Of a stretch of 44,379 bases of DNA, positions 1 to 18,578 are shown one piece after another. The position numbers were made by a program, and so were the translations under genes. The DNA is from Clostridia bacterium (GTDB lineage: Bacteria; Bacillota; Clostridia; Oscillospirales; Acutalibacteraceae). The notes beneath the pieces are model-generated. The model saw only the letters and a list, made by a program, of their open reading frames with translations, was not told the origin of the DNA and made no database searches. Every line of letters starts with the position of its first letter. Position 1 is the first letter of the stretch. The DNA lies in contig JAGAKF010000018.1 of assembly GCA_017625835.1 (NCBI GenBank), positions 1 through 44,379 on the forward strand, read 5' to 3'.

Positions 1-49
1 AGGCACTATCAAAGTCGAAGTGTTATATTTTAGCGTCGCAGACCCTTAA

Positions 50-139
50 TGTTTGCAATGCAAACACATCATTCGCGTAGCGAACATCATTCATCATATC
101 CGCACAGCGGATGCATCATTGCAAAGGCATCGCCTTTGC
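50..139. repeat. array of four different short palindromes separated by CATCAT-like spacers
   Basis: Four perfect short inverted repeats follow one another: TGTTTGCAATGCAAACA (50-66), TTCGCGTAGCGAA (72-84), ATCCGCACAGCGGAT (98-112) and GCAAAGGCATCGCCTTTGC (121-139). Each has a 3-base loop, the stems are unrelated in sequence, and the linkers all contain CATCAT or TCATCAT. The array lies downstream of the terminator of the leftmost operon. It codes for nothing I can see. It looks like an intergenic hairpin repeat element; positions 1-49 and 140-198 hold nothing else I recognise. Confidence 0.7.
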
Positions 140-198
140 TCTACAAACCCGAATTTATTGAATTTTTGAGAATTTATAAAATATTCACAATTCTAATA

Positions 199-228
199 AA
201 AAAGCACTTGAGTTAACAAGTGCTTTTT
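199..228 (-). terminator. intrinsic terminator of the seven-gene operon
   Basis: Inverted repeat AAAAAGCACTTG / CAAGTGCTTTTT with a 6-base loop, directly after the stop codon of the GH20 gene. On the minus strand it ends in a T run, so it should stop transcription of the operon that begins near 6950. It is symmetric enough to work in both directions. Confidence 0.85.
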
Positions 229-229
229 G

Positions 230-1783
230 TCAGTTCTTTTGTTTTTTCAATGCTTCGTTCTTTTTAAACTCCTTACCGTCTTTGCCGTGGCTAAACATCG
301 GGATAAGCTTGCGTCTGGTTTTATCATCAAGGCGGTAATAGTTAATCCCCTTGCTTCTGAGATAAAGCTTGTAGAACTTCTGACGTTCGCTGAAATCCTT
401 ATAGTTTCGTTTTTCAAGCTTTACCCAGGCCACCTCTGCAAGTGCGGAAAGCCTCGGATAAAGGCTGTACTCGATTGCTTCGGGAGTATCAATCCATTCT
501 GTCCAGAGTTCACCTTCGATACCCTTGACTCTTACGCCCTTTTTACGGAAGCCTTTTTTCTTTTCGTTGAATTTATAGGTTTTCTTCAAAGGGATTGAGC
601 CGTAGCTGTAATTGAAATAAAAATCAAGCATCGGAGAAAGAATAACTTCACGCTTCTTAGCCTGCTTTTTAACCATTACAGCGTTCTGGAATGTCCAGTA
701 CTGGCAGATGATGTTCTTATCAAGTTCATCGCCGAGGCAGTCATTCCAGGCAATACAGGTCTTTCCCCTGTGGCGAAGCATTTCATTGATTCTTCCCATG
801 AAGTACATCTGCAGATGCTTTTCATTCTTGAGAGAATTATCTTTGATTTTTGCCTGACACTTCGGACATTTGCGCCACTTGCCGTATCTTGCTTCGTCTC
901 CGCCGATGTGGAAGTAACGTGACTGAAACAAGGGGCAAACCTCGTCAAAAAGCTTTTCAAGAAAAGCATAAGTATTCTCGTTTCCTGCGCAAAGGATAGC
1001 AGGCATAATGCCCGTTGAAACATTGACATCTGTTTCCTTTCCGTCGCAGGAAAGCTCGGGATAAGCTGCAACCATAGCCGTTGTGTGGCCCGGTATATCA
1101 ATCTCAGGGATGACCCTCACGTGCCTTTGTGCTGCATATTGTACGATCTCGCGAATTTCATCGTGGGTATAGTAAAACGGTCCGTATTCGGGCTGTGATT
1201 CGTCCTGACCGCGTTTTCCGAGATAAGCATAGCGTCTTTTTGATGCAACCTCGTTAAGAAGCGGAAAAACCTTTGATTCAATGCGGTATCCCTGGTCATC
1301 CGCAAGATGCCAGTGGAAAACGTTGATTTTGAGCATCGACATATTATCGATAAGCTTCTTGACTGTTTCCTTGCCGAAGAAGTGTCTGCATTCGTCAAGC
1401 ATCATTCCGCGGTGACGGTAGCAGGGCTTATCCTCAATTAAGAAGCCTGTAATATTCTTCTTGCCGTCAACTTTTTTAACCTGCATAAGAATCCATTTAA
1501 GCGTTACAAACGCATAATAGGCACCGGTTGCAGTTGAGGCTTTGATATGGATATTACCGTTTTCTGTATAGAGGGCATAACCCTCCGGAGCGATACTTTT
1601 CGCCCTTGATATGATTATTTCGTTTTCGCCTGCATCCGAACGCGTGTGAAGGTATTCCGAAAGCGCATTTCCTACGCTCAGGAACGAGCGGACACAGTTG
1701 ACCGCCGTCATATCGGAGACAACAACCGTTTCATTATCCTTCACGTCATAACGTACGGGACGCGGAATTATCGAATATTTCAT
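230..1783 (-). CDS. GH20 family beta-N-acetylhexosaminidase, cytoplasmic
   Basis: A 517-aa glycoside hydrolase family 20 enzyme, expected to remove terminal beta-linked GlcNAc or GalNAc from oligosaccharides by substrate-assisted catalysis. A GH20b-like N-terminal domain occupies about residues 1-120. The catalytic TIM barrel follows, with GMMLDECRHF near 126-135, NVFHWHLADDQGYRIE near 164-179 and the signature HIGGDE at 292-297, where D296-E297 is the catalytic pair. No signal peptide is visible, so it probably acts on imported sugars in the cytosol. The ATG sits 1 nt after the ABC-F stop codon with an AAAGGGCGAG ribosome site, so it is the last gene of the operon. Its link to the peptide cassette upstream may be only transcriptional. 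The family is clear; the natural substrate is not. Confidence 0.93.
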   Translation of the reverse strand: MKYSIIPRPVRYDVKDNETVVVSDMTAVNCVRSFLSVGNALSEYLHTRSDAGENEIIISRAKSIAPEGYALYTENGNIHIKASTATGAYYAFVTLKWILMQVKKVDGKKNITGFLIEDKPCYRHRGMMLDECRHFFGKETVKKLIDNMSMLKINVFHWHLADDQGYRIESKVFPLLNEVASKRRYAYLGKRGQDESQPEYGPFYYTHDEIREIVQYAAQRHVRVIPEIDIPGHTTAMVAAYPELSCDGKETDVNVSTGIMPAILCAGNENTYAFLEKLFDEVCPLFQSRYFHIGGDEARYGKWRKCPKCQAKIKDNSLKNEKHLQMYFMGRINEMLRHRGKTCIAWNDCLGDELDKNIICQYWTFQNAVMVKKQAKKREVILSPMLDFYFNYSYGSIPLKKTYKFNEKKKGFRKKGVRVKGIEGELWTEWIDTPEAIEYSLYPRLSALAEVAWVKLEKRNYKDFSERQKFYKLYLRSKGINYYRLDDKTRRKLIPMFSHGKDGKEFKKNEALKKQKN

Positions 1784-1784
1784 A

Positions 1785-3377
1785 TTACTCGCCCTTTATT
1801 TCCTCAAGGTATTCGTCATAAGTGATTTCTTTATCATAGAAGCTGCCGGGTGTTACGTCAATGATTCTGTTTGCGATGGTCTGCACAAACTGGTGGTCAT
1901 GTGAAGTAAAGAGCACCGTTTCGGGGAACTTGATTATTCCCTCATTGAGCGATGCGATTGACTCGAGGTCAAGGTGGTTAGTAGGCTCATCAAAGATGAG
2001 AACATTAGCACCCGAAAGCATCATTTTACAAAGCATACAGCGTACACGCTCACCACCCGAAAGCACCTTTGCTTTCTTGGTCGCTTCTTCGCCTGAGAAC
2101 ATCATTCTGCCGAGCCAGCCTCTTACGTCTGTTTCGAAGATAAGATCGGAATAACGACGGAGCCAGTCGATAAGTGAATCCTCACAGCCGTCAAAGAACT
2201 CTGAGTTATCTGACGGGAAGTATGCCTGAGATGTTGTAACACCCCACTTGAAGGAGCCCTCATCAGGTTCAATTTCACCCATAAGAATCTGGAAAAGTGT
2301 TGTTTTTGCAAGTGAGTCAGTTCCGACAAAAGCAACCTTTTCGTCAGGCTTGATTGTAAAGCTTACGTTGTCAAGCACCTTGCGGTCGCCGATTGTTTTG
2401 CTGATTCCGCTAACCGTAAGAAGTTCGTTACCAACCTCACGGTCAGGCTTGAAAGAAACGAACGGGAAACGGCGTGAAGAAACAGGCATATCCTCGATAA
2501 CGAGATTATCAAGAAGCTTTTTACGGCTTGTCGCCTGCTTGGATTTTGAAGCATTGGCACTGAATCGGGCAATAAATTCCTGCAATTCTTTTGCTTTCTG
2601 TTCAGCCTTCTTATTCTGCTCACGGAGCTGACGCTGTGCAAGCTGAGTATAATCGTACCAGAAGTCGTAGTTACCGACGTACATACCGATCTTGCCGAAG
2701 TCGATATCTACGATGTGTGTGCAGACTTTATTAAGGAAATGACGGTCATGGGAGACAACGATAACCGTGCTGTCAAGCTCAATAAGGAACTCTTCGAGCC
2801 AGGCGATTGCATCAATGTCAAGATGGTTGGTCGGCTCGTCCATAAGAAGAATATCGGGATTTCCGAAAAGAGCCTGTGCAAGAAGAACCTTGACCTTGAT
2901 TTCATTGTCAAGGTCGCTCATCTGCTGATAGTGGTATTCATTTGTAACGCCGAGGCCGTTAAGGAGGATTTCAGCATCGCTTTCCGCGCTCCATCCGCCC
3001 ATCTCTGCAAATTCCTCTTCAAGCTCGCTGACACGTATTCCGTCCTCTTCCGAAAAATCCTCTTTCATATAGAGAGCTTCTTTTTCGTCCATAATTTCGC
3101 AGAGCTTCGGATTACCCATAAGCACCGTTCTGATTACATCGTATTCATCAAATGCAAAGTGATCCTGACGAAGAACCGACATTCTTTCGCCCGGAGTGAT
3201 TATAACCTCACCCTTATTCGGCTCAATTTCGCCTGAAAGGATTTTGAGGAAAGTTGACTTACCTGCACCATTGGCACCGATAAGGCCGTAACAGTTGCCG
3301 TTTGTGAATTTCAAATCCGCGCCCTTAAAAAGCTCTCTGCCGCCGTACTGGAGGCTTACATTAACCGTACTGATCAA
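1785..3377 (-). CDS. ABC-F family ATPase, YbiT type
   Basis: A 530-aa soluble protein with two ATP-binding cassettes and no membrane domain, the same length as E. coli YbiT. Walker A1 is GANGAGKST (34-42) and Walker B1 LLMDEPTNHLD (177-187). The inter-domain linker (about 240-310) has the FSANASKSKQATSR stretch typical of YbiT. Signature 2 is LSGGE (439-443) and Walker B2 IFDEPTNHLD (461-470). The second Walker A is unusual, GTDSLAKTT (352-360), with Ala before the Lys, and the first signature is degenerate (MSDLDNE). ABC-F proteins bind ribosomes and act in translation or antibiotic protection. The start is TTG, supported by AAGGAG 8 nt upstream, and overlaps the peptidase stop codon as TTGA, so its translation is probably coupled to that gene. 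A self-protection role is inference. Confidence 0.9.
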   Translation of the reverse strand: MISTVNVSLQYGGRELFKGADLKFTNGNCYGLIGANGAGKSTFLKILSGEIEPNKGEVIITPGERMSVLRQDHFAFDEYDVIRTVLMGNPKLCEIMDEKEALYMKEDFSEEDGIRVSELEEEFAEMGGWSAESDAEILLNGLGVTNEYHYQQMSDLDNEIKVKVLLAQALFGNPDILLMDEPTNHLDIDAIAWLEEFLIELDSTVIVVSHDRHFLNKVCTHIVDIDFGKIGMYVGNYDFWYDYTQLAQRQLREQNKKAEQKAKELQEFIARFSANASKSKQATSRKKLLDNLVIEDMPVSSRRFPFVSFKPDREVGNELLTVSGISKTIGDRKVLDNVSFTIKPDEKVAFVGTDSLAKTTLFQILMGEIEPDEGSFKWGVTTSQAYFPSDNSEFFDGCEDSLIDWLRRYSDLIFETDVRGWLGRMMFSGEEATKKAKVLSGGERVRCMLCKMMLSGANVLIFDEPTNHLDLESIASLNEGIIKFPETVLFTSHDHQFVQTIANRIIDVTPGSFYDKEITYDEYLEEIKGE

Positions 3378-3853
3378 TTCTTTTTCTCCTTTTCCTTAGG
3401 GAATCTGTCCCCTGTCAAAAACTTAATAAATGAATAAACCTTACTTTTAAAAAGATAGTAATACTTTCTGACATATCTTATCACAGGTAAAAACCTGACG
3501 TAAATTTTATACCCCGGATCCGTAACCTTATATGTCTTTCCGTTGCGGTCAAAAGAGTAAAGCACACCTATTATCTGATCGTGCCTTACGTTGTATTCGT
3601 TCTGCCACTGATTGTCACCGCGCATAACGTAGGTGTCACCATTGACGTAAATCACACGGTGAAGAATATACTGTCCGTTGTCCCTCTGATAAAAAGGTAC
3701 ATCTCCTTTTTTCAAATGTCCCTTAGGTTTTACAAGAGTTACCGTATCTTCGCGGTCACGGATAGTCGGGAGCATACTTACCCCTGCGGACACAAAAGAC
3801 ACCTCTCCGCTTTCTTCAAGAGTTTCCTTTATCAGCGGAGCAATATCGTTCAT
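3374..3853 (-). CDS. S24/S26-type signal-peptidase-like serine protease (Ser-His type)
   Basis: A 159-aa protein of the S24/S26 peptidase superfamily. The catalytic Ser box is AGVSMLPTI with Ser26. The general-base position is in YILHRVI (His65), as in SipW and ER-type signal peptidases, rather than the bacterial Lys. A later conserved box is GDTYVMRGDNQ. No clear N-terminal membrane anchor is visible; the C-terminal end is Tyr- and Lys-rich and amphipathic. I chose the ATG at 3853, 10 nt after the PqqD stop codon; a longer frame opens at 3916 but would overlap the PqqD gene by 53 nt and has a weaker ribosome site. Position within the cassette suggests it cleaves the leader of the small peptide encoded at 6678-6839, or another exported substrate. 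The fold is fairly sure, the substrate unknown. Confidence 0.8.
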   Translation of the reverse strand: MNDIAPLIKETLEESGEVSFVSAGVSMLPTIRDREDTVTLVKPKGHLKKGDVPFYQRDNGQYILHRVIYVNGDTYVMRGDNQWQNEYNVRHDQIIGVLYSFDRNGKTYKVTDPGYKIYVRFLPVIRYVRKYYYLFKSKVYSFIKFLTGDRFPKEKEKKN

Positions 3854-3863
3854 ACTTACTTTT

Positions 3864-4124
3864 TTACTCAACCAAATCTGCCCCTTTGAGTTTTTCAAGG
3901 AATTCCATAACCTCATCCTGAATGTCAGCGGGATTTACTTCACATTCCTTTGCAAGCGCTTCAACAACCTCGTTAGGCTCAGCGCCCTTTTCAAGCATAT
4001 TCCAGATAAACGTTCCCGTTTCATTGACTGTAATAAGTCCCGTGAAGTTAATTCCACCCAAAGCAACGACTATGCTGTTATTTCCGACTTTTCTGAGTCT
4101 GTATCCTTCTTTAATTTTCATCAT
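3864..4124 (-). CDS. PqqD-family peptide-binding protein (RiPP recognition element)
   Basis: An 86-aa protein with the PqqD winged-helix pattern: GYRLRKVGNNSIVVAL for the beta strands, ITVNETGTFIWNMLEKG for the conserved N/G-T-x-xW/I-x-LL region, then a helical C-terminus (EVVEALAKE...VMEFLEKLKG). Family members act as RiPP recognition elements that bind the leader of a precursor peptide and present it to a modifying enzyme. The gene overlaps the end of the exporter gene by 14 nt, which implies coupled translation. A second ATG directly follows the first. No radical SAM, YcaO or lanthionine enzyme is next to it, so the partner may be the HPr-kinase-like protein encoded at 5859-6557. Confidence in the family is high for a small protein. 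Confidence 0.85.
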   Translation of the reverse strand: MMKIKEGYRLRKVGNNSIVVALGGINFTGLITVNETGTFIWNMLEKGAEPNEVVEALAKECEVNPADIQDEVMEFLEKLKGADLVE

Positions 4125-5841
4125 TCTCTCCTCCGTACGTGTTGAGAATTTTTATCTTTTTGTTATCAATCCGAATTTCTTTGTTGCACACATTAAGTGC
4201 AGCGGGTTTGTGCGTAATAATGATGCACGTTCTGTTCTGAAGATCGCGGAGATTTTTGAGAAGTCGTTCTTCGGTAGCTTCATCAAGAGCCGATGTCGCC
4301 TCGTCGAGAAGCAGAATCGGAGCGCCATAAAGAATCGCTCTTGCGATAGCGATTCGCTGAATCTGACCTTCTGAAAGGCCCATTCCCCTCTCTCCTACGA
4401 CTGTTTCAAGGCCGTCGGGAAGTTCACGTACAAATTCATCAGCACAGCTGATTTCGACTGCGCGCATAATTTCTTCGTCAGTTTTACCTTCGCACATAAA
4501 CGTGATATTTTCACGAAGTGTACCTGAAAGAAGCATATTGCCCTGCGGTACATATGAAAAGAGGTCTCTTGTTCCTCTGTCAACAAGCCTTTCGTTCTGA
4601 CCGTCGCCTACGGTGATAGTTCCGCTTTCAGGATAAATAACACCGAGTAACAGCTTTAAAAGTGTACTTTTGCCTATACCGGAAATACCTGTTATTGCTG
4701 CAAAGTCACCCTTATTTACGGTTACACTCGCATCATCAAATATAAGGTCACGGTTGTATCTGAAAGTTAATGAGTTAAAGCTGATTGTTTTCAGATTTTT
4801 ATAGTATTCATCGACATCGCCGATTTCCTCGTGAGTGTCAAATTCGTCGTCATAATCTTCAAGTTCAATAAGTCTTTCGGCCGAAGCAATAATACCGTAG
4901 AACCGCGGCAAAACACCTGCGAGAGAAGAAAGCGGACCCTGAATCTGATTTACAAGCTGGAGAATGGCAGTCATCTGGCCAACGTCGATATGCCCTTGAA
5001 AAACACGGATACCACCAAGCACCATCGCAAAAAGATAACCGAGGCTGAATGCCATCTGCATACCTGTGTTGGCAAAGATACTGATTGTTGCACGTTTAAT
5101 TCTTATTTTATAATTCTTATTCTGAAGGTCCTTAGCTTTTGCAATTATCTGATCATACGCATTGAAAACCTTGATGACAAGAACACTTGTGATTGATTCC
5201 TGAAAAAACGAACGGACATTACCGTCTGCCTCCTGCGCAGCTTTATGAATCCGTTTAAGATAATTTCTGAAAAATCGTGTTGTTACTGCAATAAGTGAGC
5301 CGCCGCCAAGAAAAATAAGTGCAAAAATATAGTCCAGCTGTACCATAATCACAACTGAAGCAATAAGCTTAGTCAGAAGCGAAACAATATTCGGCAAAAG
5401 CCCTGTAACGCCGTCGCAGATTGTCTGCACATCGGAAGTCAGTCTGTTAAGAATATCACCGCTGTGGTGCTTCGTAAGCTGTGCATAATCCTTGCGGATT
5501 ATTTTTTCAAAAACGCGGCTTCTGATTTTGATTTCTATCTTAGCTTTTGCCCGTTCAAACATATTGTTGTTGAAAACCTTGAGCGCAAGCTGAAGAAGAA
5601 CAAGTATTAAAAGATAAATTGCTCCTTTTTTAAGAAGCTCTGCATCTTTAAGCGTTGCACCGTTGACAACATCCCTCATTCCGAATGCCGTAAGGATTCC
5701 GAAGAATGAAAGTGCAGCACTTAAAACAGAATAAACAAAAACAAAAAGCCAACTGCCTTTTGAAACACCAAAAATCCACTTTGCAGTGGATAGATCACTT
5801 CTATTTTGGGTTACAGGACAGTTGTCTTTTATCTTTCTCAC
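4111..5841 (-). CDS. ABC exporter with fused membrane and ATPase domains
   Basis: A 576-aa half-transporter. About six hydrophobic segments lie in residues 25-310 (type IV ABC exporter membrane domain) and an ATPase domain in 350-576. Walker A is GISGIGKST (385-393), signature LSEGQ (489-493) and Walker B ILLLDEATSALD (509-520), with a switch His in IIITHKPA. The signature has Glu in place of the first Gly, seen in some peptide exporters. It has no C39 peptidase domain, so leader removal needs a separate protease, consistent with the S24/S26-type enzyme downstream. It starts with GTG behind AAAGGAAAG. It lies 17 nt after the kinase-like gene and overlaps the PqqD gene. Likely role: export of the mature small peptide. 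Confidence 0.92.
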   Translation of the reverse strand: MRKIKDNCPVTQNRSDLSTAKWIFGVSKGSWLFVFVYSVLSAALSFFGILTAFGMRDVVNGATLKDAELLKKGAIYLLILVLLQLALKVFNNNMFERAKAKIEIKIRSRVFEKIIRKDYAQLTKHHSGDILNRLTSDVQTICDGVTGLLPNIVSLLTKLIASVVIMVQLDYIFALIFLGGGSLIAVTTRFFRNYLKRIHKAAQEADGNVRSFFQESITSVLVIKVFNAYDQIIAKAKDLQNKNYKIRIKRATISIFANTGMQMAFSLGYLFAMVLGGIRVFQGHIDVGQMTAILQLVNQIQGPLSSLAGVLPRFYGIIASAERLIELEDYDDEFDTHEEIGDVDEYYKNLKTISFNSLTFRYNRDLIFDDASVTVNKGDFAAITGISGIGKSTLLKLLLGVIYPESGTITVGDGQNERLVDRGTRDLFSYVPQGNMLLSGTLRENITFMCEGKTDEEIMRAVEISCADEFVRELPDGLETVVGERGMGLSEGQIQRIAIARAILYGAPILLLDEATSALDEATEERLLKNLRDLQNRTCIIITHKPAALNVCNKEIRIDNKKIKILNTYGGENDEN

Positions 5842-5858
5842 TTAAATCTTTCCTTTGA

Positions 5859-6557
5859 TTACTTTTTTCTCATAGCGTTGAATGCAACCTCTGCAGCCTC
5901 AACATTCATATTGCATCTGAGCTTATAAACAGGAACATTCTTTATAAGTTCGTCCATAAAGTCACATAACATAATTGTACGAGCCGGATGAGAAGGCCTG
6001 AGCGTTTGTGAAAAAAGAAGCTTTACTGCTTCATCAACACTCATCCGCTCTATTGAGTTTTCCTCAGCTTGTTCAATAAAGCATATGCCGCCAAGCTCCG
6101 CGAAAGTATTCTCGTTTAGGTCGTGTTTTCCGGAAAAAGGAGTGCCAAAGGCATAGTATTTGCCGTCAATTAACCTGTACGCTGCTTTATCGTCATTAAG
6201 AATAAATGCCCTTTCGCCCAAAAGCTTCAGCCAAAGAGCTGTATGGGTTGATTTACCCGTTCCGCAAGGTGCAGAAAACGAATAAGCCATACCGTCGACA
6301 ACAACTGTTGACGAATGAAGAAACATACCGTTATATTCAAGAAGCTTGACATTAAAGGCGGTACCCATCCAGAGATACTCCAGTTCTGCCTCAGACACAC
6401 CTGAATAAAGATTGAGTTGCTGTTCCATAAGATTATCTGTAACGCCGATATTAAAATCTGCTTTTTCATCACAAATATATTTTTCACTTCTCTTTCGGAG
6501 CATATCATATTTAGGCTCATAACCAACGTTGAGTCCCGCTATTTTATAAACAGGCAT
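5859..6557 (-). CDS. HPr-kinase-like P-loop protein of the peptide cassette
   Basis: A 232-aa protein with the HPr kinase/PEPCK-type P-loop: SAPCGTGKST (95-104), then ILNDDKAAYR (119-128) and FGTPFSGKHDLN, which matches the HprK order of P-loop, acidic DDK motif and G-T-P-F-x-G. It lacks the N-terminal DRTGG-like half and the full signature of true HPr kinase, so it is not the carbon-catabolite enzyme. Proteins of this class recur next to PqqD-like proteins in peptide cassettes: ScmC/ScmD in SynChlorMet, and the kinases that phosphorylate lasso peptides such as paeninodin. It may phosphorylate Ser or Thr of the neighbouring peptide. ATG with AAGGAG 8 nt upstream. The fold is well supported, the substrate is inference. 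Confidence 0.8.
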   Translation of the reverse strand: MPVYKIAGLNVGYEPKYDMLRKRSEKYICDEKADFNIGVTDNLMEQQLNLYSGVSEAELEYLWMGTAFNVKLLEYNGMFLHSSTVVVDGMAYSFSAPCGTGKSTHTALWLKLLGERAFILNDDKAAYRLIDGKYYAFGTPFSGKHDLNENTFAELGGICFIEQAEENSIERMSVDEAVKLLFSQTLRPSHPARTIMLCDFMDELIKNVPVYKLRCNMNVEAAEVAFNAMRKK

Positions 6558-6627
6558 AATTTTCGCTCCTTCAGAAGAATTTAAGCTTTAACCATATATA
6601 CTGCCAGCAGATATCGTTAAAACTTAA

Positions 6628-6662
6628 ATTCGGCAGACAACCTTTGGGATTGCCTGCCGAAT
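6628..6662 (-). terminator. hairpin between peptide gene and kinase-like gene, probable partial terminator
   Basis: A 13-bp inverted repeat, ATTCGGCAGGCAA / TTGTCTGCCGAAT with one G-U pair and a 9-base loop, lies 15 nt after the stop codon of the small peptide gene. The tail on the minus strand is only moderately T-rich (TTAAGTTTTAACG). This suits an attenuator or an mRNA 3'-end stabiliser that lets the peptide be made in excess over the downstream enzymes. Confidence 0.7.
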
Positions 6663-6677
6663 CCGTTTTCGGTTTGA

Positions 6678-6839
6678 TTAGCCGATGATAAGATCGCTAC
6701 CGATGCTCTCTGTCGCCGCAGCAGCAGTTGTAGTCTCACCTGCAACATCAGCGCCGATTGCTGCTGATGCGCCTTCAGCAGTAATCTCCTCAATGATATC
6801 GAACTTTTCAATTTCCATTTCAGGTTTCATATAAGTCAT
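6678..6839 (-). CDS. 53-aa candidate RiPP precursor peptide
   Basis: A short gene read from ATG at 6839 to TAA, with TGAGGTG as ribosome site 5 nt upstream. The N-terminal half is leader-like and charged (MTYMKPEMEIEKFDIIEEIT); the C-terminal half (21-53) is made almost only of Ala, Gly, Ser, Thr, Asp, Glu and Ile/Val, with an ETTTAAAATES block and the end SIGSDLIIG. There is no Cys, no aromatic residue after F13 and no signal peptide. It is the first gene after a strong promoter and is followed by a hairpin and by kinase-like, exporter, PqqD and peptidase genes. I do not recognise it as a named family. The gene call is based on ribosome site, leader-like pattern and position; precursor function is inference. 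Confidence 0.75.
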   Translation of the reverse strand: MTYMKPEMEIEKFDIIEEITAEGASAAIGADVAGETTTAAAATESIGSDLIIG

Positions 6840-6955
6840 TATTTTCACCTCAAATATTATTGGACTCGATAAGCGATAATAATAAGAAATTGATCAAGAT
6901 ATCTTTAGTTAACAACCAATTTCATAATAACTCTATTATCACTATATCTTGTTAG

Positions 6956-6984
6956 ATATTATCATAACAGCACTATTTTGTCAA
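6956..6984 (-). promoter_or_regulatory. strong promoter of the peptide operon
   Basis: TTGACA (6979-6984), a 17-base spacer, then TAATAT (6956-6961) preceded by TGA, an extended -10. The leader to the peptide start is about 110 nt and AT-rich. It contains ATAATA-ACTC-TATTAT (6924-6939), a possible operator or small hairpin just downstream of the start point. Confidence 0.8.
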
Positions 6985-7025
6985 TATTTTTCTCATCAGC
7001 TTATTATGGTTAAATAAAAATCAAA

Positions 7026-7047
7026 GCCCCGTGTTTTACCACGGGGC
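7026..7047 (-). terminator. intrinsic terminator after the 577-aa surface protein gene
   Basis: Inverted repeat GCCCCGTG / CACGGGGC with a 6-base loop, followed on the minus strand by TTTGATTTTTA. It ends the transcript of the surface-protein genes on its right and insulates the peptide operon promoter. Confidence 0.85.
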
Positions 7048-7089
7048 CAAGAAAAAATATTATGCGATTCTAATGTTTAATAATTGATA

Positions 7090-8823
7090 TTAGTAAACAA
7101 CAGTTGCATCAAGAGTAGAACCGGATGCAGCGAAGAATGTTTCAGCTGTACGAGTTCTGATTACGAGTGAACGTGTGCCATACGGGCCAAATGCATGGTT
7201 GATTGTCCATACGCGCTCACCGTCGATATCTTCATAAGGAACCTTACCGGCACCTGACCATGAAGTATATGTGTATGTTGTACCATCTTCTGCATAGAAC
7301 TGAATCTTAACTACGTCTGTGCTTGTCTTGAGGATGATGTCGTGCTTACCAGCGAGGATAACGCCACCGTTCTTAGCATCCGGATACATATCAGGAATCT
7401 CGATTGAGTGGATTGAGAGATCCTTCTTAACGAGACCTGTGAGAGTGAAATCTGTACCGTCTGTTACGCCGAGATCGCCGTAATCAGCATATACTGTGCA
7501 TGCAACTTCTGCTTCAGCTACGAAGATTTCGATCACCCATGTCTCGCCAGCTTCTGTTGCTGTGATATCAGCATCGTCACGAGTGAAGATCTGGTATCCG
7601 TCAGGAGTTGTAACACGAAGAGCATCAGGTGTACCTGTTACTTCAACTTCAACAACAGCTGTGTCACCGATGTATGTTTCACTAGTAACAACATCAACGA
7701 TTTCGCCCTTAACTTCAGGAGCGGGTTCTTCACCGATTGTAACTGTTTCAACGTTAGCCTGAATAGTCTGATCAAACAATGAGTTATAGTCAGCTGACAA
7801 GCCATATGTTTCCTTTGTGAGACTTTCATAATCAACACGATATGCGTTCCAAACAGAGTCTGTTCTACCTATCGATTGTTCAGCATTACCAACATTCTGG
7901 AACTTTGCAATAACGTCGTCAGGGATGAAGAATTCGATTTCTGTGCCGTCAGCAACGCCTTCCTTAACTTCATATGTAGCTGTGAAAAGGAGATCGTTAT
8001 TGAACTTTCTGCCGCCAAGGAACTCACCGTAGTCCAATGTCTGATTGTCGGGGTAAGTATAGATGTAAGATACGCCGTACTTATCGAGTTTTTCCTCTGT
8101 GTACATAGCTTCAGGCCAGTAGTTAAATCTACGGTCCTTCTTGATGCTGCCGTCTTCATTATACTCAACAGCAAGGTCTGTCTGAGTAGCTGAAACCCAA
8201 CCTGTGTCTGTTTCAGGTGTAGTAATGTCGATAGGCTTAAGGACAGACTTATCATAGAAGATACCGCCCAGAAGCTCACCAATTATGTAGTTTGATGTAG
8301 CGTAAACATCAACTGTAATTGTTTCGCCAGCCTTAGCGTACTCCTTATCAGCAACAATGTTAACGTCTACAACAGCCTTTGACTCATCACGGTATGCATA
8401 AGCATAATCGTAGAAAATGTCACACTCTGTTACCATTTCTCCACCATTATCATATGTGAAGTAGAGAATTGCCGGTGTTGCCATCTTGTTGTAAAGATTC
8501 CAATAATCTTCATTTGTTGATGCTGCATTGTACTCTTCGATGATCTCATCGTCCCAGAAGTAAAGGTTGTACTCAAGAACTTCCTGAGGTGCCGGTTCCT
8601 CTGCGCTACCGTCATAAAGCTTTGTACCTGTAAGCCATCTTCTGTCGATTTCATATTTCCAATCAACATCTGCGTCGTAATCTACGTACCAACCCTTTTC
8701 GGCAACTTCTGCCTCTGCTTCTTCAGGTGTGTAATCATAATAATCACCTGCAAAAGAAGCAACTGCGAAAGTGCCAAGAAGCATTGCTACTGCAAGAACG
8801 ATGCTTAAAACTTTCTTTGCCAT
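7090..8823 (-). CDS. secreted multi-domain surface protein with cohesin-like domain
   Basis: A 577-aa protein with a Sec signal peptide (about 1-25, ending AVASFA). Residues about 150-330 look like a cohesin or carbohydrate-binding-type beta sandwich: AVVDVNIVADKEYAKAGETI, then GGIFYDKSVLKPIDI, then LFTATYEVKEGVADGTEIEF. This is the order of strands seen in cohesins, which bind dockerins. Two more beta-rich Ig-like regions follow (about 375-470 and 475-577). There is no dockerin, wall-anchor motif or membrane segment at the C-terminus. ATG with GGAGG 8 nt upstream. It begins 56 nt after the end of the 1914-aa gene without a clear promoter between, so the two are probably co-transcribed. The cohesin call is by pattern only and should be treated as tentative. 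Confidence 0.65.
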   Translation of the reverse strand: MAKKVLSIVLAVAMLLGTFAVASFAGDYYDYTPEEAEAEVAEKGWYVDYDADVDWKYEIDRRWLTGTKLYDGSAEEPAPQEVLEYNLYFWDDEIIEEYNAASTNEDYWNLYNKMATPAILYFTYDNGGEMVTECDIFYDYAYAYRDESKAVVDVNIVADKEYAKAGETITVDVYATSNYIIGELLGGIFYDKSVLKPIDITTPETDTGWVSATQTDLAVEYNEDGSIKKDRRFNYWPEAMYTEEKLDKYGVSYIYTYPDNQTLDYGEFLGGRKFNNDLLFTATYEVKEGVADGTEIEFFIPDDVIAKFQNVGNAEQSIGRTDSVWNAYRVDYESLTKETYGLSADYNSLFDQTIQANVETVTIGEEPAPEVKGEIVDVVTSETYIGDTAVVEVEVTGTPDALRVTTPDGYQIFTRDDADITATEAGETWVIEIFVAEAEVACTVYADYGDLGVTDGTDFTLTGLVKKDLSIHSIEIPDMYPDAKNGGVILAGKHDIILKTSTDVVKIQFYAEDGTTYTYTSWSGAGKVPYEDIDGERVWTINHAFGPYGTRSLVIRTRTAETFFAASGSTLDATVVY

Positions 8824-8879
8824 AATATTTCCTCCTAAATTTTATATCTTTATCCATTGGCATGGATTAAAGCCATTAA

Positions 8880-11800
8880 TTATGCTTCTACGCCCTTACC
8901 TGTTACCTGGTCAATTACCATCTTACCACCGACAACTGAACGAATTACTGAAGCATCCTTTGAATTGATTGTTGCTCTTGTTCCTTCAACGTTAGCTGCA
9001 AGCTTTGCTGCACCTTCGAGCTTATCTGCTGCTCCTGTTACGGTGTCAGCCACTGCTGATGCATCTTTACCGTTAATCGATGCACTTCCGTCGATGTCAC
9101 CATAGATTACGATTACGTACTCTCCGATAACTTCGCCTGTCTTTTCTGACTTAACGATTACCTTTGAGCCTGTACCCATGTAACGTGCTGTTGTCATTTC
9201 ATACTCGAGCTTTACATTTTCGTAATCTGCATATGTGCTCTGGAACTTTGCCTTTGTAAGGCTGGTCTGGAGACCTACGATGTAGTTTACACCGCCCTGT
9301 GTAATGATTGAAGCTGTTCCCTTAACTCCGAAAAGCTCCGTAACAGCCGGAACAAGAGAGTCGATGTAACCCTGAAGAGTTACTGCCATTTCATCAACCT
9401 GAGCCTGTTTGTCGATCGTCAGGTCCATATTCTTTGAAACAGTTTCCTCTCTGTAAGCTACTATAAGAGACATTACCTCATTAAAGTTTTCATATGTATT
9501 AGTATAAATCTCCGAAGACGAATTGTCAAGCAAATCTAAGATTTTTTGAAGTTCTGTGTAATCTGCCAATTTTAACTTCAATTCATTGGTAAGATTAACT
9601 ATATTATTTGCAAAGAGAATAACTTTATCCTGCTCCGTGATATCAAGACCGTACTCAACTTTGTCGATTTCTGCCTGAAGCAGAGCAACCGAATCGTCTG
9701 TATACCAGCCTGTAGCGATCTTTTCATTCGCTGCTGTGATAGCATCTTCAACTGCGGTGTAGTCTGCGTCCATTACTATAAGCGATTCCGTCAGACCTTC
9801 AATATTTATAACTAATGAATCCACAAAATACTGGTCATAAAGGTTTTCGCTTTCCGAGTTGATTTCTGACTTTGCAAAGCTTACAGCTTCACGGAGCCTT
9901 GCAACAGAATCATATGTATAGATGCCCTTTTCGATTTCTTCTTCAGCAATTCTGATTACCTCGAGAAGCTCGTCAATGTACGGACCCTTGCGCTCAAGGC
10001 GGCCGATTGCTTCTGTAATCATCGCCGCAAACACGTCAACCTCATCCTGCCTGTCAGCAGTAAGTGTGTAGTCGACCTGAGCAATTACTTCACTGAGCTC
10101 TGCAACACTTTCATCTGTATACAATCCGGTTGCAATCTTTGAATCAGCAACCGCGATTGCATTTTCAACTGCAGTATAGTCAGCAGGTTTGAGGACAAGC
10201 TTACCTGTTGCTTCGACGATTGCTGCTGCGAAAGCATCGACATCCGCCTGCTTATCAATAGTCAAACCGTATTCAACAGCGTTAATTGCATTCTGCACAA
10301 GAACAACTGAATCGTCTGTATACCAGCCTGTATTTATCTTCTCGTTTGCAGCTGATATTGCATTTTCAACAGATGTGTAATCTGCACCATTAACCTCAAG
10401 TTTTTCAATTGCTGCATTGATTGCCGTTGCGTAACCGTCAACGGTTGACTGCTTAAGAATGTTATATCCGCGGACAACCTTGTTGATTGCTTTGTTGAGA
10501 TTTGCAACGCTTTCGTCTGTATAGATGCCCTTTGAGATTTCAGCATTTGCCTTCTCAATAGCTTCATCAACTGCAGTGTAATCAGCCTGTCTGTACTTAA
10601 GCATTGAAACAGCATCGTCGATTGCATAAGCAAACTCATCGACCTCATCCTGACGGGTATACGGATAGTCGCGTTCAACTGCCTCAATTGCAGCAAGAAC
10701 ATCTGCAACACTTTCATCAGTGTACAAGCCTGATTCAATTTCTGAACGGGCATATTGGATAGCATCATCAACATCTGTATAATCAGCATAGATTATTTCG
10801 AGCTTGCTTGTCGCATCAATAATAGCTGCAGCAAAAGCGTCAACCTCTTCCTGACGGGTAACCTTATAACCTCTGACAACAGCATTGATAGCCTTATTGA
10901 CATTTGCAACGCTTTCATCTGTGTAATAACCCTTTGCAATTTCAGCATTAGCTGCTGTGATAGCATCATCAACTGCAGTATAGTCTGCATCAAGCTGAAC
11001 GAGCTTTCCTACTGCATTATTGATTGCCGTTGCAAAAGCATCAACCTCGTTTTGTCTTGTAACAGGATAGTCGCGCTCAACAGCATCTATTGCTTCCTGA
11101 ACAAGTGCAATGCTGTCATCGGTATAAATACCCTTTTCAATCTCAGCGTTAGCAGCCACTATTGCATCATCTACCGCTGTATAATCAGCTGTCTTATAGC
11201 GAAGGAATTCAATCGCCTGCTCGATTGCGAGAGCATATGTGTCAACTTCCTCCTGATGAGTTATATCAAGATCGTAAACAACTGCACCAATCTGAGCCTG
11301 AAGGTGATTCCAGCTGTCCTCAGTATAAATCGAAGAATCTGTCGGCACCTTCTTAATCGCTGCGGTAACTGCACTGTAATCTGCACCCTTGTATTTAAGT
11401 CCTGTTATTGCATTGTTTATAGATGTAACATATCTGTCAACCGTAGCCTGCTTGTCAGCTGTATATGTACGGTTGATATTATTGATTGTTGCGTTAAGAG
11501 TTGCAACAGAAAGAGTTGTATACAAAGTAAGATCAGACGGCACATTAAGAAGTGCTTGATCCACCTGAGTATAATCTGCGGGAGCAATTACAAGCTTTGA
11601 AATTGCATCTGCGATAGCTGTTGCGTAGCCATCAACAACAGTCTGTTCTCTTATATCAAGACCTTCAACAACCGAAGCAACTACAACCTCCAGGTCTGCC
11701 ATTGATTCATCTGTATAATAAGGATGATCGGGATGTGCTGTCTCAAACTCGGTGTTAAGATCAATCTTCTCCTGTGCAAGAGCAAGCTGTTTATTTACCT

Positions 11801-14624
11801 GACTGTAATCTGCGGGAAGATATTCAAGCTGGTCGATTGCTTCGCTGATTGTAGTTACATAACCGTCTACCGTTGCCTGCTCGCTGATCGGTTTATTGAA
11901 TACAACCGAAGTATACGCTTGCGTAAGTCTGTCAAGGCTTGCTTCGGTATAAAGGTCCTCACCTGTTGTAACGATTTCATATGCTTCATCATAGACTGTT
12001 CTTACTTCAGAATAGTCTGCAGTATTCTCAACAAGTGAATTGAGTGCATTTGTGATTGCGGTTGCATAGCCGTTTACCGTTGCCTGATGTGAAAAATCAA
12101 GTCCTCTTTCAACATTTTCAATAGCCTGAATTACTGAAGACCAGTTAGAATAGAATGTTTCAGCCGTAAAACCATATGAATCAGCGTATGTGTTTTTGAT
12201 GAGATTTTCTCGTTCCTGAACCAGGTCAATCGCTGCATCGACAGACGAATAATCAGCCAGGTTCTTATTAAGGCTGTCAATCGCCGACTGAAGCGCTGTG
12301 GTTGCTCGGTTTATATCATTCTGGTATCTGATATCAAGATCCAGCTTGGATTCAAGATTTGCAAGAGCTGTATCAACAGCAGACATATCGTCATACTGGC
12401 TTCTGTCTATGCTGTTCGCCTTAGCAATCATCTGAAAAGCAGCAGTAGTATCTGCCGGTTTGTACTGAAGATTTTCAAGTTTTTCATTAAGGTTTGCCGT
12501 TGCTGTGTCGATCTTTGACTGGTACGATAAATCCTTACCTTTAAGGGCAACAAGCTCATTGTAGGCAGCGGTAAGCTCCGTTGCACAGTCTTCCACAAGA
12601 TAAGAAAGATTTACAGCCTTATATGCCGTTTCTGCTTTTGTCGCTTCAACATAGTTTGCTGACTTCAAAGAAAGTGCATTTATCGCTCTCTCGAGCTGAA
12701 GAACATAACCGTTAACAGTAGCCTGTTCACCTCTAAGGAGAGGATCAGCAACAATGTATCCGTCAAGTTCATCATATATGCATCCGAGTTTAGTTAACGT
12801 TTGTTCGAGGTTTGACCAGTTGTTATAAGCTTCGGAGGCAGGGATTCCGTAATTCGCAAGCGAGCGAGACATAATCGTATTTATTGTTTTAAGGTGAGCA
12901 TTGAATTCAGTGTAATCAGCGGGAGCTTCCTCAAGCTCACCAATAGCTGCAACGAGATCTGTACCCAACTTATCTACAGCAGGCTGATAAATTGCACTGT
13001 AATTATCTAAATAAGAATCCAGAATATTCTGCACCTTTGCCCATGAAGCCAGTGTGTAGAAAGTCTTATCTTTTGCCATCGCCTGAGCATAGTAAGCTGA
13101 TGCAACTGAATAGTCAGCCGTTCTCATTTCAAGATCATCATAAGCAGCAACAACTGCATTGTAAGCAGTATTGATTTCATCCTGAGTTGCATTCGGCTTT
13201 TTAAGGCAGGAAAGGGCTGATTTGTAAGCGTTGAGGAAAGCTTCCCAACCTGCAGAATAATACCAATCCTGAGGGTTGTAGCCCTTAAAATCGCCTGACG
13301 GAACATCAGTTGTCATAACTGTCGGGTCTGTTCCGTGAATCTGATCAATGAACGTACGCAAAGCACCCTTATCCGTCGTTATAATTCTCAAGCTGTGTGA
13401 ATGGCCGATAAAAACTTCATTCCAGTCAGCTGCAGTCTGATATTTATTGGTGAAGGTATAATCGCGTGTGCCAATAGAATCACTTGGAACTGAACCTGTA
13501 AAGTACTGCATAAACGAAGTTCCTGCGCCAAAGATTGATCCACTGTAGCCTGTAAGACCAATTTCATTTGCAGCATAGGTGTTATTTGTCAAAGCGCCGT
13601 CGTCATCTTCGTCTGAATAAGTGTTGCATACATTATAGTTTACATATGTATTACGGATAGAAACCGTAACCTGCTCATTGGAGTTTGAAGCCTGATCAAG
13701 ATTAGCTGTTACAAGACGAAGATTGAGGTCAGAAAGTGTTGAATGAATGCTTCGGTCAAAATAAACATATGAAATAGGTCTGTTATCATCTGCGTGATAA
13801 GCAATATTATAATCGCGTGAAGCGCTTTGTCCGTCTGACCTGTGCATAACGCCGTAATCCGTAGTCCATCCGGGTGCCGAACCTGTACTTTCAAAGAAAA
13901 CGCTGCCTTCACCTACTCCGTTATTGTAAAGAGTGCCGTAGGTGTTTGCGCCAAGAACATATGATGCTACATATGAACGGTTCTTAGTACTCTGACCAAG
14001 CCAGAAATCCTCGTATGTCCTCTTTGTTGAATACTCTCCTGCAGGTGTTGCAATCGCTTCAACATAAGAAACGCCGTAAGAATTATACGTCCTTGTATAG
14101 CTCTTACCGGTTACAGTATTATGATCTGTGTGAGTGTAGGCAATTGTGAATATGAGAGTTGTTCCTACTGTTGCGGTACCACCTGTTACAGACCATACAT
14201 ATGTACCGTTGGAAAATGAATAATCGCTGATAGTTACAGTAGTATTGCTGCAGGTAATCGTCGGTGCTGAGTCGAGCTCGACACCCGGAGTGAATGCAAT
14301 CTGAGTTGCAACGGGTGTTTCACCTGCATATGCTGTTGCAGAAGTGAATGATCCGTTCAGCTCAGGCATACCTGACGGTGTTGCCTTAACGATAACTGAG
14401 TTACTTCCCGAAGGCTGCTTCATTGAGTTAACGGCATAAGCAACTCGCGTTATATCCGTAACATAAACTGAAGCCACCGGTCTTTTGAGGACCAGTGAAG
14501 AATCCGTTGCCCTTGCATCAGCTGCAACAGCCGTAAAGACAGGCGAACCGAGAGTTATCGGCAAAGAAGAAAGTATGAGTGTCAAAGCAATTATTAAGCT
14601 TATAACCTTTCTGCATTTTTTCAT
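8880..14624 (-). CDS. giant secreted protein with 18 FIVAR-like helical repeats and a C-terminal dockerin-like module
   Basis: A 1914-aa secreted protein. I chose the ATG at 14624 because GGTGG lies 8 nt upstream; an ATG at 14639 would add five residues. The signal peptide is about 1-35. Residues about 40-480 form a beta-rich N-terminal region I do not recognise. Then about 18 repeats, most opening with ADYT/S, run to about residue 1760. They resemble FIVAR-type three-helix repeats (YTxESVxxLxxAI...QxxVDxxAxAI...L) used as stalks or ligand-binding arms. The last 100 residues (8883-9182) are a small beta module (GTGSKV...GEYVIVIYGD) and two dockerin-type segments. Loop 1 (DIDGSASINGKD) keeps the calcium ligands; loop 2 (near ANVEGTRATINSKD) does not. 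Probably a long cell-surface fibre protein held by its dockerin. Confidence 0.8.
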   Translation of the reverse strand: MKKCRKVISLIIALTLILSSLPITLGSPVFTAVAADARATDSSLVLKRPVASVYVTDITRVAYAVNSMKQPSGSNSVIVKATPSGMPELNGSFTSATAYAGETPVATQIAFTPGVELDSAPTITCSNTTVTISDYSFSNGTYVWSVTGGTATVGTTLIFTIAYTHTDHNTVTGKSYTRTYNSYGVSYVEAIATPAGEYSTKRTYEDFWLGQSTKNRSYVASYVLGANTYGTLYNNGVGEGSVFFESTGSAPGWTTDYGVMHRSDGQSASRDYNIAYHADDNRPISYVYFDRSIHSTLSDLNLRLVTANLDQASNSNEQVTVSIRNTYVNYNVCNTYSDEDDDGALTNNTYAANEIGLTGYSGSIFGAGTSFMQYFTGSVPSDSIGTRDYTFTNKYQTAADWNEVFIGHSHSLRIITTDKGALRTFIDQIHGTDPTVMTTDVPSGDFKGYNPQDWYYSAGWEAFLNAYKSALSCLKKPNATQDEINTAYNAVVAAYDDLEMRTADYSVASAYYAQAMAKDKTFYTLASWAKVQNILDSYLDNYSAIYQPAVDKLGTDLVAAIGELEEAPADYTEFNAHLKTINTIMSRSLANYGIPASEAYNNWSNLEQTLTKLGCIYDELDGYIVADPLLRGEQATVNGYVLQLERAINALSLKSANYVEATKAETAYKAVNLSYLVEDCATELTAAYNELVALKGKDLSYQSKIDTATANLNEKLENLQYKPADTTAAFQMIAKANSIDRSQYDDMSAVDTALANLESKLDLDIRYQNDINRATTALQSAIDSLNKNLADYSSVDAAIDLVQERENLIKNTYADSYGFTAETFYSNWSSVIQAIENVERGLDFSHQATVNGYATAITNALNSLVENTADYSEVRTVYDEAYEIVTTGEDLYTEASLDRLTQAYTSVVFNKPISEQATVDGYVTTISEAIDQLEYLPADYSQVNKQLALAQEKIDLNTEFETAHPDHPYYTDESMADLEVVVASVVEGLDIREQTVVDGYATAIADAISKLVIAPADYTQVDQALLNVPSDLTLYTTLSVATLNATINNINRTYTADKQATVDRYVTSINNAITGLKYKGADYSAVTAAIKKVPTDSSIYTEDSWNHLQAQIGAVVYDLDITHQEEVDTYALAIEQAIEFLRYKTADYTAVDDAIVAANAEIEKGIYTDDSIALVQEAIDAVERDYPVTRQNEVDAFATAINNAVGKLVQLDADYTAVDDAITAANAEIAKGYYTDESVANVNKAINAVVRGYKVTRQEEVDAFAAAIIDATSKLEIIYADYTDVDDAIQYARSEIESGLYTDESVADVLAAIEAVERDYPYTRQDEVDEFAYAIDDAVSMLKYRQADYTAVDEAIEKANAEISKGIYTDESVANLNKAINKVVRGYNILKQSTVDGYATAINAAIEKLEVNGADYTSVENAISAANEKINTGWYTDDSVVLVQNAINAVEYGLTIDKQADVDAFAAAIVEATGKLVLKPADYTAVENAIAVADSKIATGLYTDESVAELSEVIAQVDYTLTADRQDEVDVFAAMITEAIGRLERKGPYIDELLEVIRIAEEEIEKGIYTYDSVARLREAVSFAKSEINSESENLYDQYFVDSLVINIEGLTESLIVMDADYTAVEDAITAANEKIATGWYTDDSVALLQAEIDKVEYGLDITEQDKVILFANNIVNLTNELKLKLADYTELQKILDLLDNSSSEIYTNTYENFNEVMSLIVAYREETVSKNMDLTIDKQAQVDEMAVTLQGYIDSLVPAVTELFGVKGTASIITQGGVNYIVGLQTSLTKAKFQSTYADYENVKLEYEMTTARYMGTGSKVIVKSEKTGEVIGEYVIVIYGDIDGSASINGKDASAVADTVTGAADKLEGAAKLAANVEGTRATINSKDASVIRSVVGGKMVIDQVTGKGVEA
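9340..13119 (-). repeat. coding array of about 18 helical repeats of near 67 aa
   Basis: Repeat starts are marked by ADY codons. Six central units are exactly 67 codons (201 bp) each: 10989-11189, 10788-10988, 10587-10787, 10386-10586, 10185-10385 and 9984-10184. Flanking units are more divergent and vary in length. The four from 10386 to 11189 alternate in type (see findings). Confidence 0.8.
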
Positions 14625-14682
14625 ATCCAACACCACCATAAAATTATCGCATACTTACCCCACGATACTATTATACATAAAT

Positions 14683-14711
14683 ATTTTATCACAACAAACT
14701 TTGCAAGTCAA
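14683..14711 (-). promoter_or_regulatory. promoter of the 1914-aa and 577-aa surface protein genes
   Basis: TTGACT (14706-14711), a 17-base spacer and TAAAAT (14683-14688), preceded by TGA as an extended -10. The leader to the start codon is about 50 nt. Confidence 0.7.
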
Positions 14712-14771
14712 CAAGCTTTAAGTCTGTTTTGTAACAAGGGTAACGGGTTCATATGTAAATAAAGCAAAGAA

Positions 14772-14801
14772 AAACAACCGGTACTTTCGTACCGGCTGTT
14801 T
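14772..14801 (-). terminator. intrinsic terminator of the 1212-aa dockerin protein gene
   Basis: AAACAGCCGGTAC, loop GAAA, GTACCGGTTGTTT, then TTCTTTGC on the minus strand, directly after the stop codon. Confidence 0.85.
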
Positions 14802-14810
14802 GTGTTTAAT

Positions 14811-18449: not shown

Positions 18450-18471
18450 CTAAAAACACCTCCATTTTTTT

Positions 18472-18541
18472 GCCAAGTATCTCAGGAAGTGGACCAGTGA
18501 GACCCGATAGCTCACATAAAGCCCCACTAATACACTTTGGC
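18472..18541 (-). ncRNA. structured 5' leader of the 1212-aa dockerin gene, candidate cis-regulatory RNA
   Basis: Seventy bases between promoter and ribosome site fold on paper into nested stems. The closing stem is GCCAA / TTGGC extended by GTGT / ATAC across a one-base bulge. Inside are AGTGG / CCACT and GTGAG / CTCAC with a 9-base loop. The GGAGG ribosome site lies about 9 nt downstream of the closing stem. It does not match the riboswitch classes I can recall. Confidence 0.45.
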
Positions 18542-18549
18542 TTATACTA

Positions 18550-18578
18550 ATATTATCAAATAAAAACCAATTTGTAAA
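18550..18578 (-). promoter_or_regulatory. promoter of the 1212-aa dockerin gene
   Basis: TTTACA (18573-18578), a 17-base spacer and TAATAT (18550-18555), preceded by TGA (extended -10). It leaves a leader of about 95 nt. The rest of the gap 18579-18818 is very AT-rich and shows no gene or RNA I can recognise. Confidence 0.7.

Follow-up and report, generated by a model that had tools for sequence, protein, structure and literature searches.

The 44,379-nt window analysed here (gut Clostridia bacterium, Acutalibacteraceae; assembly GCA_017625835.1, contig JAGAKF010000018.1, forward strand 1..44,379) carries five contiguous genes that probably form a cassette for a ribosomally synthesised and post-translationally modified peptide (RiPP). 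The cassette would be of the kind that makes phosphorylated lasso peptides and linear polyphosphorylated peptides (LPPs), without macrocyclisation, and its product a phosphorylated, trimmed and exported peptide. All five genes lie on the minus strand in the order peptide, HPrK-like protein, ABC exporter, PqqD protein and peptidase, and from the HPrK-like gene onward they overlap or are separated by at most 20 bp. An initial annotation of this DNA had recognised the five genes, including a Cys-free peptide of 53 amino acids (aa), and we confirm them at the positions below. What we see directly is which genes are present and in what order, how well they are conserved, that the catalytic residues are intact, how leader and core have evolved, and what co-occurs across genomes.

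6678..6839, minus strand: precursor peptide, 53 aa (M1-G53), no Cys; GAGGTG ribosome-binding site 6 nt before the ATG
6780..6839, minus strand: predicted leader M1-T20, with a Y3xxP6xM8 motif of the type that binds RiPP recognition elements (RREs), F13, E17, I19 and T20
6765..6767, minus strand: Ser25, candidate phospho-acceptor, the sole core Ser aligned in 4/4 of the window and the fetched loci L033, L034 and L037
5859..6557, minus strand: putative HPrK-like peptide kinase (K), 232 aa
4111..5841, minus strand: MsbA-like ABC exporter (D), 576 aa; PF00664 and PF00005
3864..4124, minus strand: PqqD-type RRE protein (B), 86 aa; PF05402
3374..3916 (longest open reading frame (ORF), 180 aa) or 3374..3871 (TTG start, ~165 aa), minus strand: putative signal-peptidase-like leader peptidase (S)

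RiPP precursors typically pair a constant leader with a fast-changing core. The window peptide has orthologues in L033, L034 and L037 (58-72% identity), and in comparison with L033 its leader (codons 1-21) has changed at 8 of 10.2 synonymous and 1 of 52.8 nonsynonymous sites. This amounts to purifying selection (nonsynonymous rate, dN, 0.02; synonymous rate, dS, saturated), while the core (codons 22-53; dN 0.37, dS 0.45) changes fast. We set aside the idea that the peptide is not a gene on the strength of this leader pattern. The leader motif, YxxPEM...FD..EIT, matches the site bound by lasso-type PqqD proteins; cleavage would probably fall near T20, and Ser25 is most likely the phospho-acceptor. 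We also collected 47 distinct peptides and anchored them on the Y/F, which gave the consensus Y-x-x-P-E-[LIM]-x-[IV]-E-x-F-D-x-x-D-V-I-T-x-S. Y and the P at Y+3 each occur in 45, with D/N/E at Y+14 in 42 and F at Y+10 in 35; T is found at Y+17 in 27 and S at Y+19 in 25, and 42/47 have a Ser somewhere within Y+17 to Y+22. Cys is present in two of the 47, and the cores are acidic on average.

The PqqD protein matches PF05402 at 57.6 bits (cut-off 23.4), and its best NCBIfam model is lasso_PqqD_Bac (35.2 bits, below that model's cut-off of 80). Searched against solved RREs, its profile matched TbiB1 (E 1.6e-12), TfuB1 (4.6e-8), LppB (2.9e-7) and PbaB1 (4.7e-7); in this profile comparison LppB and PbaB1 score alike and TbiB1 higher. 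The HPrK-like protein has no Pfam match at E <= 1, and its NCBIfam matches, to ScmC at E 1.8e-4 and to HprK_rel_A at E 1.9e-3, are weak and fall well short of the cut-offs. His81, Gly101, Lys102 and Asp123 are nonetheless present in 65/65 aligned kinases, with Ser103 in 94% and Asp122 in 89%. The available text of PMC10368454 gives H-GxxGxGKS-DD as the motif of lasso-peptide kinases, and the window kinase keeps their His, GxGKS and Asp-Asp set.

None of the family matches of the peptidase reaches its cut-off (TIGR02228, archaeal-type signal peptidase I, 30.8 bits against 51.85; PF00717, 20.5 against 23.3), and PDB sequence searches with it gave weak signal-peptidase matches only. Numbered on the 180-aa ORF starting at 3916, Ser47, His86 and Asp101 are invariant in 32/32 aligned homologues, and Gly45, Ser47, Met48, Pro50, His86, Arg87, Gly100 and Asp101 are found in 45/45 aligned sequences. 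Bacterial type I signal peptidases have Lys where the SipW/archaeal-type Ser-His enzymes have His. Judged by these residues, the last cassette gene is predicted to encode a SipW/archaeal-type Ser-His peptidase, and the LppS mutants S29, H68 and D93 described in the available text of PMC13381572 agree with a Ser-His-Asp set. The protein perhaps starts at the TTG at 3871, because its homologues in L034 and L035 begin near there. In the ABC exporter, Pfam shows no peptidase domain.

We propose that the PqqD protein would grip the YMKPEM leader, and that the HPrK-like kinase would use ATP to phosphorylate (possibly polyphosphorylate) a Ser just past the leader, with Ser25 the likeliest target. The PqqD protein would then recruit the Ser-His signal-peptidase-like enzyme to remove the leader near Thr20, and the MsbA-like exporter would release an acidic, linear phosphopeptide of ~33 residues. 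Phosphorylation and RRE-dependent leader cleavage have been demonstrated for LPP and for one phospho-lasso peptide, according to the available texts of PMC13381572 and PMC10368454.

To see how widespread the cassette is, we surveyed 300 genomes of the window's family, counting a match to the HPrK-like protein at E <= 1e-5 as a kinase of either branch of the tree described below. Matches at E <= 1e-30 were taken as the window branch (L095, fetched at 2.5e-28, falls in the other branch). A kinase of either branch occurs in 135/300 genomes and 71/135 genera, and a strong match in 108/300; across the phylum, a profile found the kinase in 13/398 sampled genomes, own genome included. PqqD accompanies the kinase in 107/108 strong-kinase and 26/27 weaker-kinase genomes vs 28/165 others, and NTP_transf_5 in 97/108 and 26/27 vs 21/165, as raw counts that take no account of genome relatedness. 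For the 135 kinase genomes together, this makes 133 with PqqD and 123 with NTP_transf_5.

We fetched 60 regions and four loci of named contigs (L033-L096), which, less the duplicate L038 and with the window added, make 64 distinct places. The joint synteny search proposed in the initial annotation bears out the grouping, with kinase, PqqD and peptidase genes together at 33/64 places. We kept 32 of these as full cassettes, setting L093 aside by hand (372-aa kinase, radical SAM neighbour). An ABC exporter is also present in 17/32; within 5 kb, seven have an NTP transferase (NTP_transf_5) and one a radical SAM gene (L093 would make two). Among the remaining places, nine have kinase and peptidase with no PqqD nearby, and 14 have the kinase alone in the fetched stretch. 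In three genomes (G075, G070 and G183) the PqqD gene lies elsewhere, adjoining an ABC exporter (L186, L188 and L189). Kinase and peptidase are fused into one protein in L064, L068 and L079 (in L064 also according to NCBIfam).

Precursors are found both beside and away from these cassettes. In the 32 full cassettes, we took small ORFs with a ribosome-binding site on the same strand, from -1600 to +300 of the kinase, and looked for [YFW]xxPx(hydrophobic) near their start. The motif occurs in 20/79 small ORFs near the kinase vs 19/965 elsewhere in the same loci, and two of the 20 look spurious. Such an ORF lies nearby in 16/32 full cassettes, and in 0/9 kinase-peptidase loci, 0/14 solo-kinase loci and 0/3 fusion loci. 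A genome-wide search with a leader profile in 20 chosen genomes, 16 of them without an adjacent leader peptide, matched a leader-type peptide in 14/20 at E <= 0.5 and 12/20 at E <= 0.001, often scattered. G075 alone accounts for six matches (four with E <= 1e-4), while none was found by this search in G070, G183, G042, G161, G049 or G055. Among the 300 genomes, 55 hold leader-type peptides at E <= 1e-4, made up of 53 strong-kinase genomes, one weaker-kinase genome and 1 of the 165 others. The scattered precursors are presumably served in trans by a kinase-peptidase set elsewhere in the genome.

The closest functional parallel comes from the LPPs, linear polyphosphorylated peptides of Bacilli (Popov et al. 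2026, PMC13381572). As far as the available part of that text goes, LppK polyphosphorylates core Ser3, the SipW-like LppS cuts after Thr-1 aided by the RRE LppB, and the clusters, which are often located in capsule loci, also contain genes for an exporter and an NTP transferase; the final product and its role are given as unknown. With LPP clusters, so far as they are described there, the window shares an HprK-like kinase with its catalytic residues, a discrete PqqD-type RRE, a SipW/archaeal-type Ser-His-Asp peptidase, an MsbA-like exporter, the lack of a cyclase, and a precursor with a YxxP leader and a variable C-terminus. However, of the LPP motif YxxPxVLxHQxIxFETxxS the window has YxxP without the VLxHQxIxFETxxS part, and its leader spaces Y and T by 17 rather than 15. 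It has no NTP transferase beside the cassette (there is one on contig C66 of its own genome G000, L190), and it does not lie in a capsule locus.

Peptides with the FETxxS motif occur in distant genomes (L123, L126 and L131), in L123 and L126 beside kinase, PqqD, peptidase and exporter (K-B-S-D) genes. We used these two loci as LPP-type comparators, with alignment E-values referring to an 11-sequence set. Their kinases have 278-289 aa vs 232 aa in the window. In both, the LPP-type cassette with FETxxS peptides adjoins a cassette of radical SAM, HPrK, PqqD and peptidase genes, whose 57-aa candidate peptide has two Cys in L123 and three in L126; two related RiPP systems thus stand next to each other there. 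Over 155 aa, the window kinase shares 37% identity with its counterpart in the L123 radical-SAM cassette vs 26%, also over 155 aa, with the LPP-type one. The PqqD protein gives 36% (87 aa) vs 30% (56 aa), and the peptidase 29% over 146 aa vs a 30-aa local match. Because leader spacing and sequence differ, no NTP transferase is adjacent and the proteins are closer to the radical-SAM-type cassette, we do not file the window cassette as LPP; by its genes it is a separate branch that would work like LPP.

Other known systems overlap with the window in part. From the available texts of PMC9266682 and PMC10368454, phospho-lasso peptide clusters (paeninodin, pseudomycoidin, Bsf) share the kinase residues, a PqqD-type B1 protein, an exporter and an optional nucleotidyltransferase, whereas the window cluster has no cyclase C (PF00733-type) and no B2, in whose place stands a serine peptidase. 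The lasso leader motif YxxPxL is present in the window with Met for Leu. The HPr-rel-A system (TIGR04352, TIGR04353) shows weak similarity to K and B, with scores far below cut-offs. SynChlorMet-like loci, which from the names of NCBIfam models we take to be cassettes of radical SAM, HPrK and PqqD genes (ScmC, ScmD, ScmE/F), share the HPrK-like and PqqD pair; the window K, B and S proteins are closest to the L123 radical-SAM cassette among those compared, but there is no radical SAM gene beside the window cassette and the peptides are almost Cys-free.

Several observations weigh against a phosphorylated, exported peptide as the product. Phosphorylation by the window cassette is a prediction from its genes. 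In the window kinase, Ala (A96, conserved in 94%) replaces the first Gly of the Walker A motif, a departure from the motif given for BsfK, and PDB sequence searches returned no kinase for this protein. The similarity to LPP-type proteins is low, as given above. The window and its orthologues from L033, L034 and L037 have the candidate acceptor at Y+22, vs Y+19 in 25/47 peptides. No leader peptide was found at E <= 1e-4 in 81/135 kinase genomes, and 16/32 full cassettes have no leader-motif ORF nearby. The small ORF upstream of the kinase gene, by which the initial annotation had proposed to judge homologous loci, is therefore missing, as a leader-motif ORF, from half of the full cassettes, yet 14/20 of the searched genomes hold a leader-type peptide.

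The initial annotation also noted that no radical SAM, YcaO, LanM or lasso cyclase gene lies beside the window cassette, which holds, and it raised the possibility that a maturase is consistently present in relatives and was lost here. In a midpoint-rooted tree of 86 fetched kinase sequences, from which two short or divergent sequences were omitted, the window falls in a branch of 65 tips (support 0.943), of which 2/65 (L040 and L093) have a radical SAM gene within 1.5 kb and 4/65 within 5 kb. In the sister branch of longer kinases (14 tips, support 0.767), 13/14 have one within 1.5 kb. A maturase is thus a regular neighbour in the sister branch but not in the window's own, and since radical SAM genes are rare among the 65 tips, a maturase was not recently lost at the window; being midpoint-rooted, the tree gives no direction of change. 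L040 has (at 5646-8294 and onward) a SCIFF maturase gene (TIGR03974, 717.9 bits), then an NTP_transf_5 gene and then an HPrK-PqqD-peptidase cassette, and a link between SCIFF and this machinery is possible. In the window's own genome, a 281-aa HPrK-like gene lies 20 bp from a 381-aa radical SAM ORF (L132, contig C57, 6801-8809, near the contig end), in what seems to be a second RiPP cassette of this organism. Because of this cassette and the 13/14 sister tips, we keep a trans-acting maturase as an unlikely rival: the peptide would also be modified by the radical SAM enzyme encoded on contig C57, or by some other enzyme, and the window cassette would only phosphorylate and trim it. Precursors and enzymes are often unlinked in this family, which fits, but the near absence of radical SAM genes from the window branch and the Cys in only 2/47 peptides, vs the two or three in the L123/L126 candidate peptides, argue against it. 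Phosphorylation and proteolysis followed by export, as the initial annotation had it, remains the best-supported reading with this reservation, and according to the available text of PMC13381572 it is already published for LPP.

A different role for the kinase-like protein, as a regulator that depends on ATP or as some other transferase with the HPrK/PEPCK-like fold, would suit its very weak family scores, its altered first Walker A residue and the 14/64 places where the gene has no PqqD or peptidase in the fetched stretch. The conserved His-Lys-Asp-Asp set, the frequent pairing or fusion with the peptidase and the genome-level co-occurrence with PqqD make this decidedly unlikely. We rate it very unlikely that the PqqD/HPrK pair instead tailors a peptide-linked surface glycan or a glycan carrier, although NTP_transf_5 lies within 5 kb of 7/32 full cassettes, a Wzz/AAA_31-type protein is found in L056 (relatives in five more loci) and LytR_cpsA_psr in L040 (relatives in L073, L075 and L087), and published LPP clusters are often in capsule loci (available text of PMC13381572). 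No such gene lies beside the window cassette, whose neighbours are ABC-F, GH20 and secreted-type proteins; a polysaccharide role and a phosphorylated peptide are in any case compatible. It seems scarcely credible that the product is a lasso peptide with its cyclase and B2 peptidase elsewhere in the genome, even though paeninodin-like clusters likewise have the leader motif, an HPrK kinase, PqqD and an exporter (as described in the available texts of PMC9266682 and PMC10368454). PF13471 (B2) was not found in the own genome at E <= 0.1 (a metagenome-assembled genome, 77% complete), and is above cut-off in 0/32 kinase-bearing genomes, with five matches below cut-off. The own genome has one strong PF00733 match (a 628-aa ORF, 308 bits, which looks like an ordinary asparagine synthetase) and one below cut-off.

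We also investigated what lies upstream of the precursors. There are 35 peptide loci, 34 of them with upstream sequence and not all independent, because some share a genome. An ORF of at least 330 aa on the same strand within 150 bp upstream is found at 25/34 peptide loci vs 70/1055 genes in these loci, and the gap to the peptide is often 2-60 bp. Of these 25 ORFs, 17 have a hydrophobic N-terminus and eight have their N-terminus cut off by the stretch. The window falls outside these 25: the gene of the 577-aa protein before its peptide is 250 bp away, behind a terminator-like hairpin, in an order kept in L033, L034 and L037. In two genomes of the same genus, G253 (L198) and G177 (L222), another YxxP peptide follows the gene of a much larger protein.

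Many of the secreted proteins preceding peptides have in common a C-terminal domain of ~105 residues (YARxYV..Y type, profile A7), for example in L039, L044, L049, L063, L179 and L181. It has no Pfam match above cut-off (eight examples), no NCBIfam match (five) and no convincing PDB match, and it occurs in 33/300 genomes, 31/33 carrying the HPrK-like kinase. In 18 genomes (10 with the kinase, 8 without), A7 gave 28 hits, all in eight kinase genomes. Seven hits were not evaluable, and a leader peptide follows in 16 of the other 21; 10 of these 16 were members of the profile, and outside the profile the figure is 6/11. In a fresh sample outside the training contigs, a peptide lies behind 1/20 hits (one of the hits with only 210 bp readable). 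With strict thresholds the figure is 7/77. We had considered this domain as a docking site for the peptide and dropped the idea on the fresh sample; because the domain alone fails to predict a peptide, we do not claim a docking role. Perhaps, though we hold it to be doubtful, the phosphopeptides pair up with the secreted proteins whose genes directly precede theirs, each as a ligand or anchor for that large surface protein, possibly joined to wall or glycan via phosphates, with one maturation set serving several scattered pairs. If true, this would be a new way to display or fix surface proteins.

The logic of phosphorylation, proteolysis and export is already in print for LPP (PMC13381572, available text). 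What is new is the window branch, its abundance, the kinase-peptidase fusions, the scattered precursors and the link to secreted-protein genes. The main text of PMC13381572, so far as available, has no word beginning clostridi, surface or secreted, and the available texts of RRE-Finder (PMC7470986) and a 2025 RRE paper (PMC12710340) do not contain 'kinase', 'HPr', 'S24' or 'S26'. A literature search for the phrase 'linear polyphosphorylated peptide' returned Popov et al. 2026 only, and the listings of our literature searches held no other description of such clostridial cassettes. A RiPP type from Bacilli that is months old is here extended to a large group of gut Clostridia (108/300 genomes of one family), and the leader pattern provides a sequence rule for finding precursors. 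Two observations give a testable hint about function: precursor genes tend to follow genes of large secreted-type proteins, and several scattered precursors can occur alongside a single kinase-peptidase set. If their site of action is the cell surface, the phosphopeptides may be relevant to the attachment of gut bacteria to fibre, mucus or one another.

The cassette is bordered by the following features.

1785..3377, minus strand: ABC-F type ATPase, overlapping the peptidase stop codon by 4 bp
6984..6956, minus strand: promoter-like site of the peptide gene itself, TTGACA-17-TAATAT, the second hexamer preceded by TG
7048..7025, minus strand: terminator-like hairpin, ending the gene upstream of the peptide
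7090..8823, minus strand: secreted-type protein, 577 aa, upstream of the peptide gene; relatives occupy this position in L033, L037 and L034 (in L034 truncated where the contig ends)

The promoter-like site and the hairpin lie between the peptide gene and the preceding secreted-type protein gene, and by eye L033 has a similar promoter-like site and the same hairpin; promoter-like sites in the region number 15, vs 11.4 expected in shuffles. The 577-aa protein matches no Pfam or NCBIfam family above cut-off. The ABC-F gene may be co-transcribed with the cassette, and its membership in the unit is uncertain. It is also found downstream of the cassette in L033, L034, L037, L047 and L084, a position possibly reflecting self-protection or mere operon drift. 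GH20 and secreted-type proteins are the other neighbours beside ABC-F. Large secreted-type proteins with dockerin-like GDxNxDG motifs (seen by eye) are encoded at 8880-14639, 14811-18449, 21474-24598 and 40035-43016 of the window. The secreted-type protein at 20312-21376 contains a long stretch of EPTEPSE repeat and has an end resembling LPxTG (NPDTGD...), and the strand complementary to it is also open, as an ORF with a GSVGSSE repeat.

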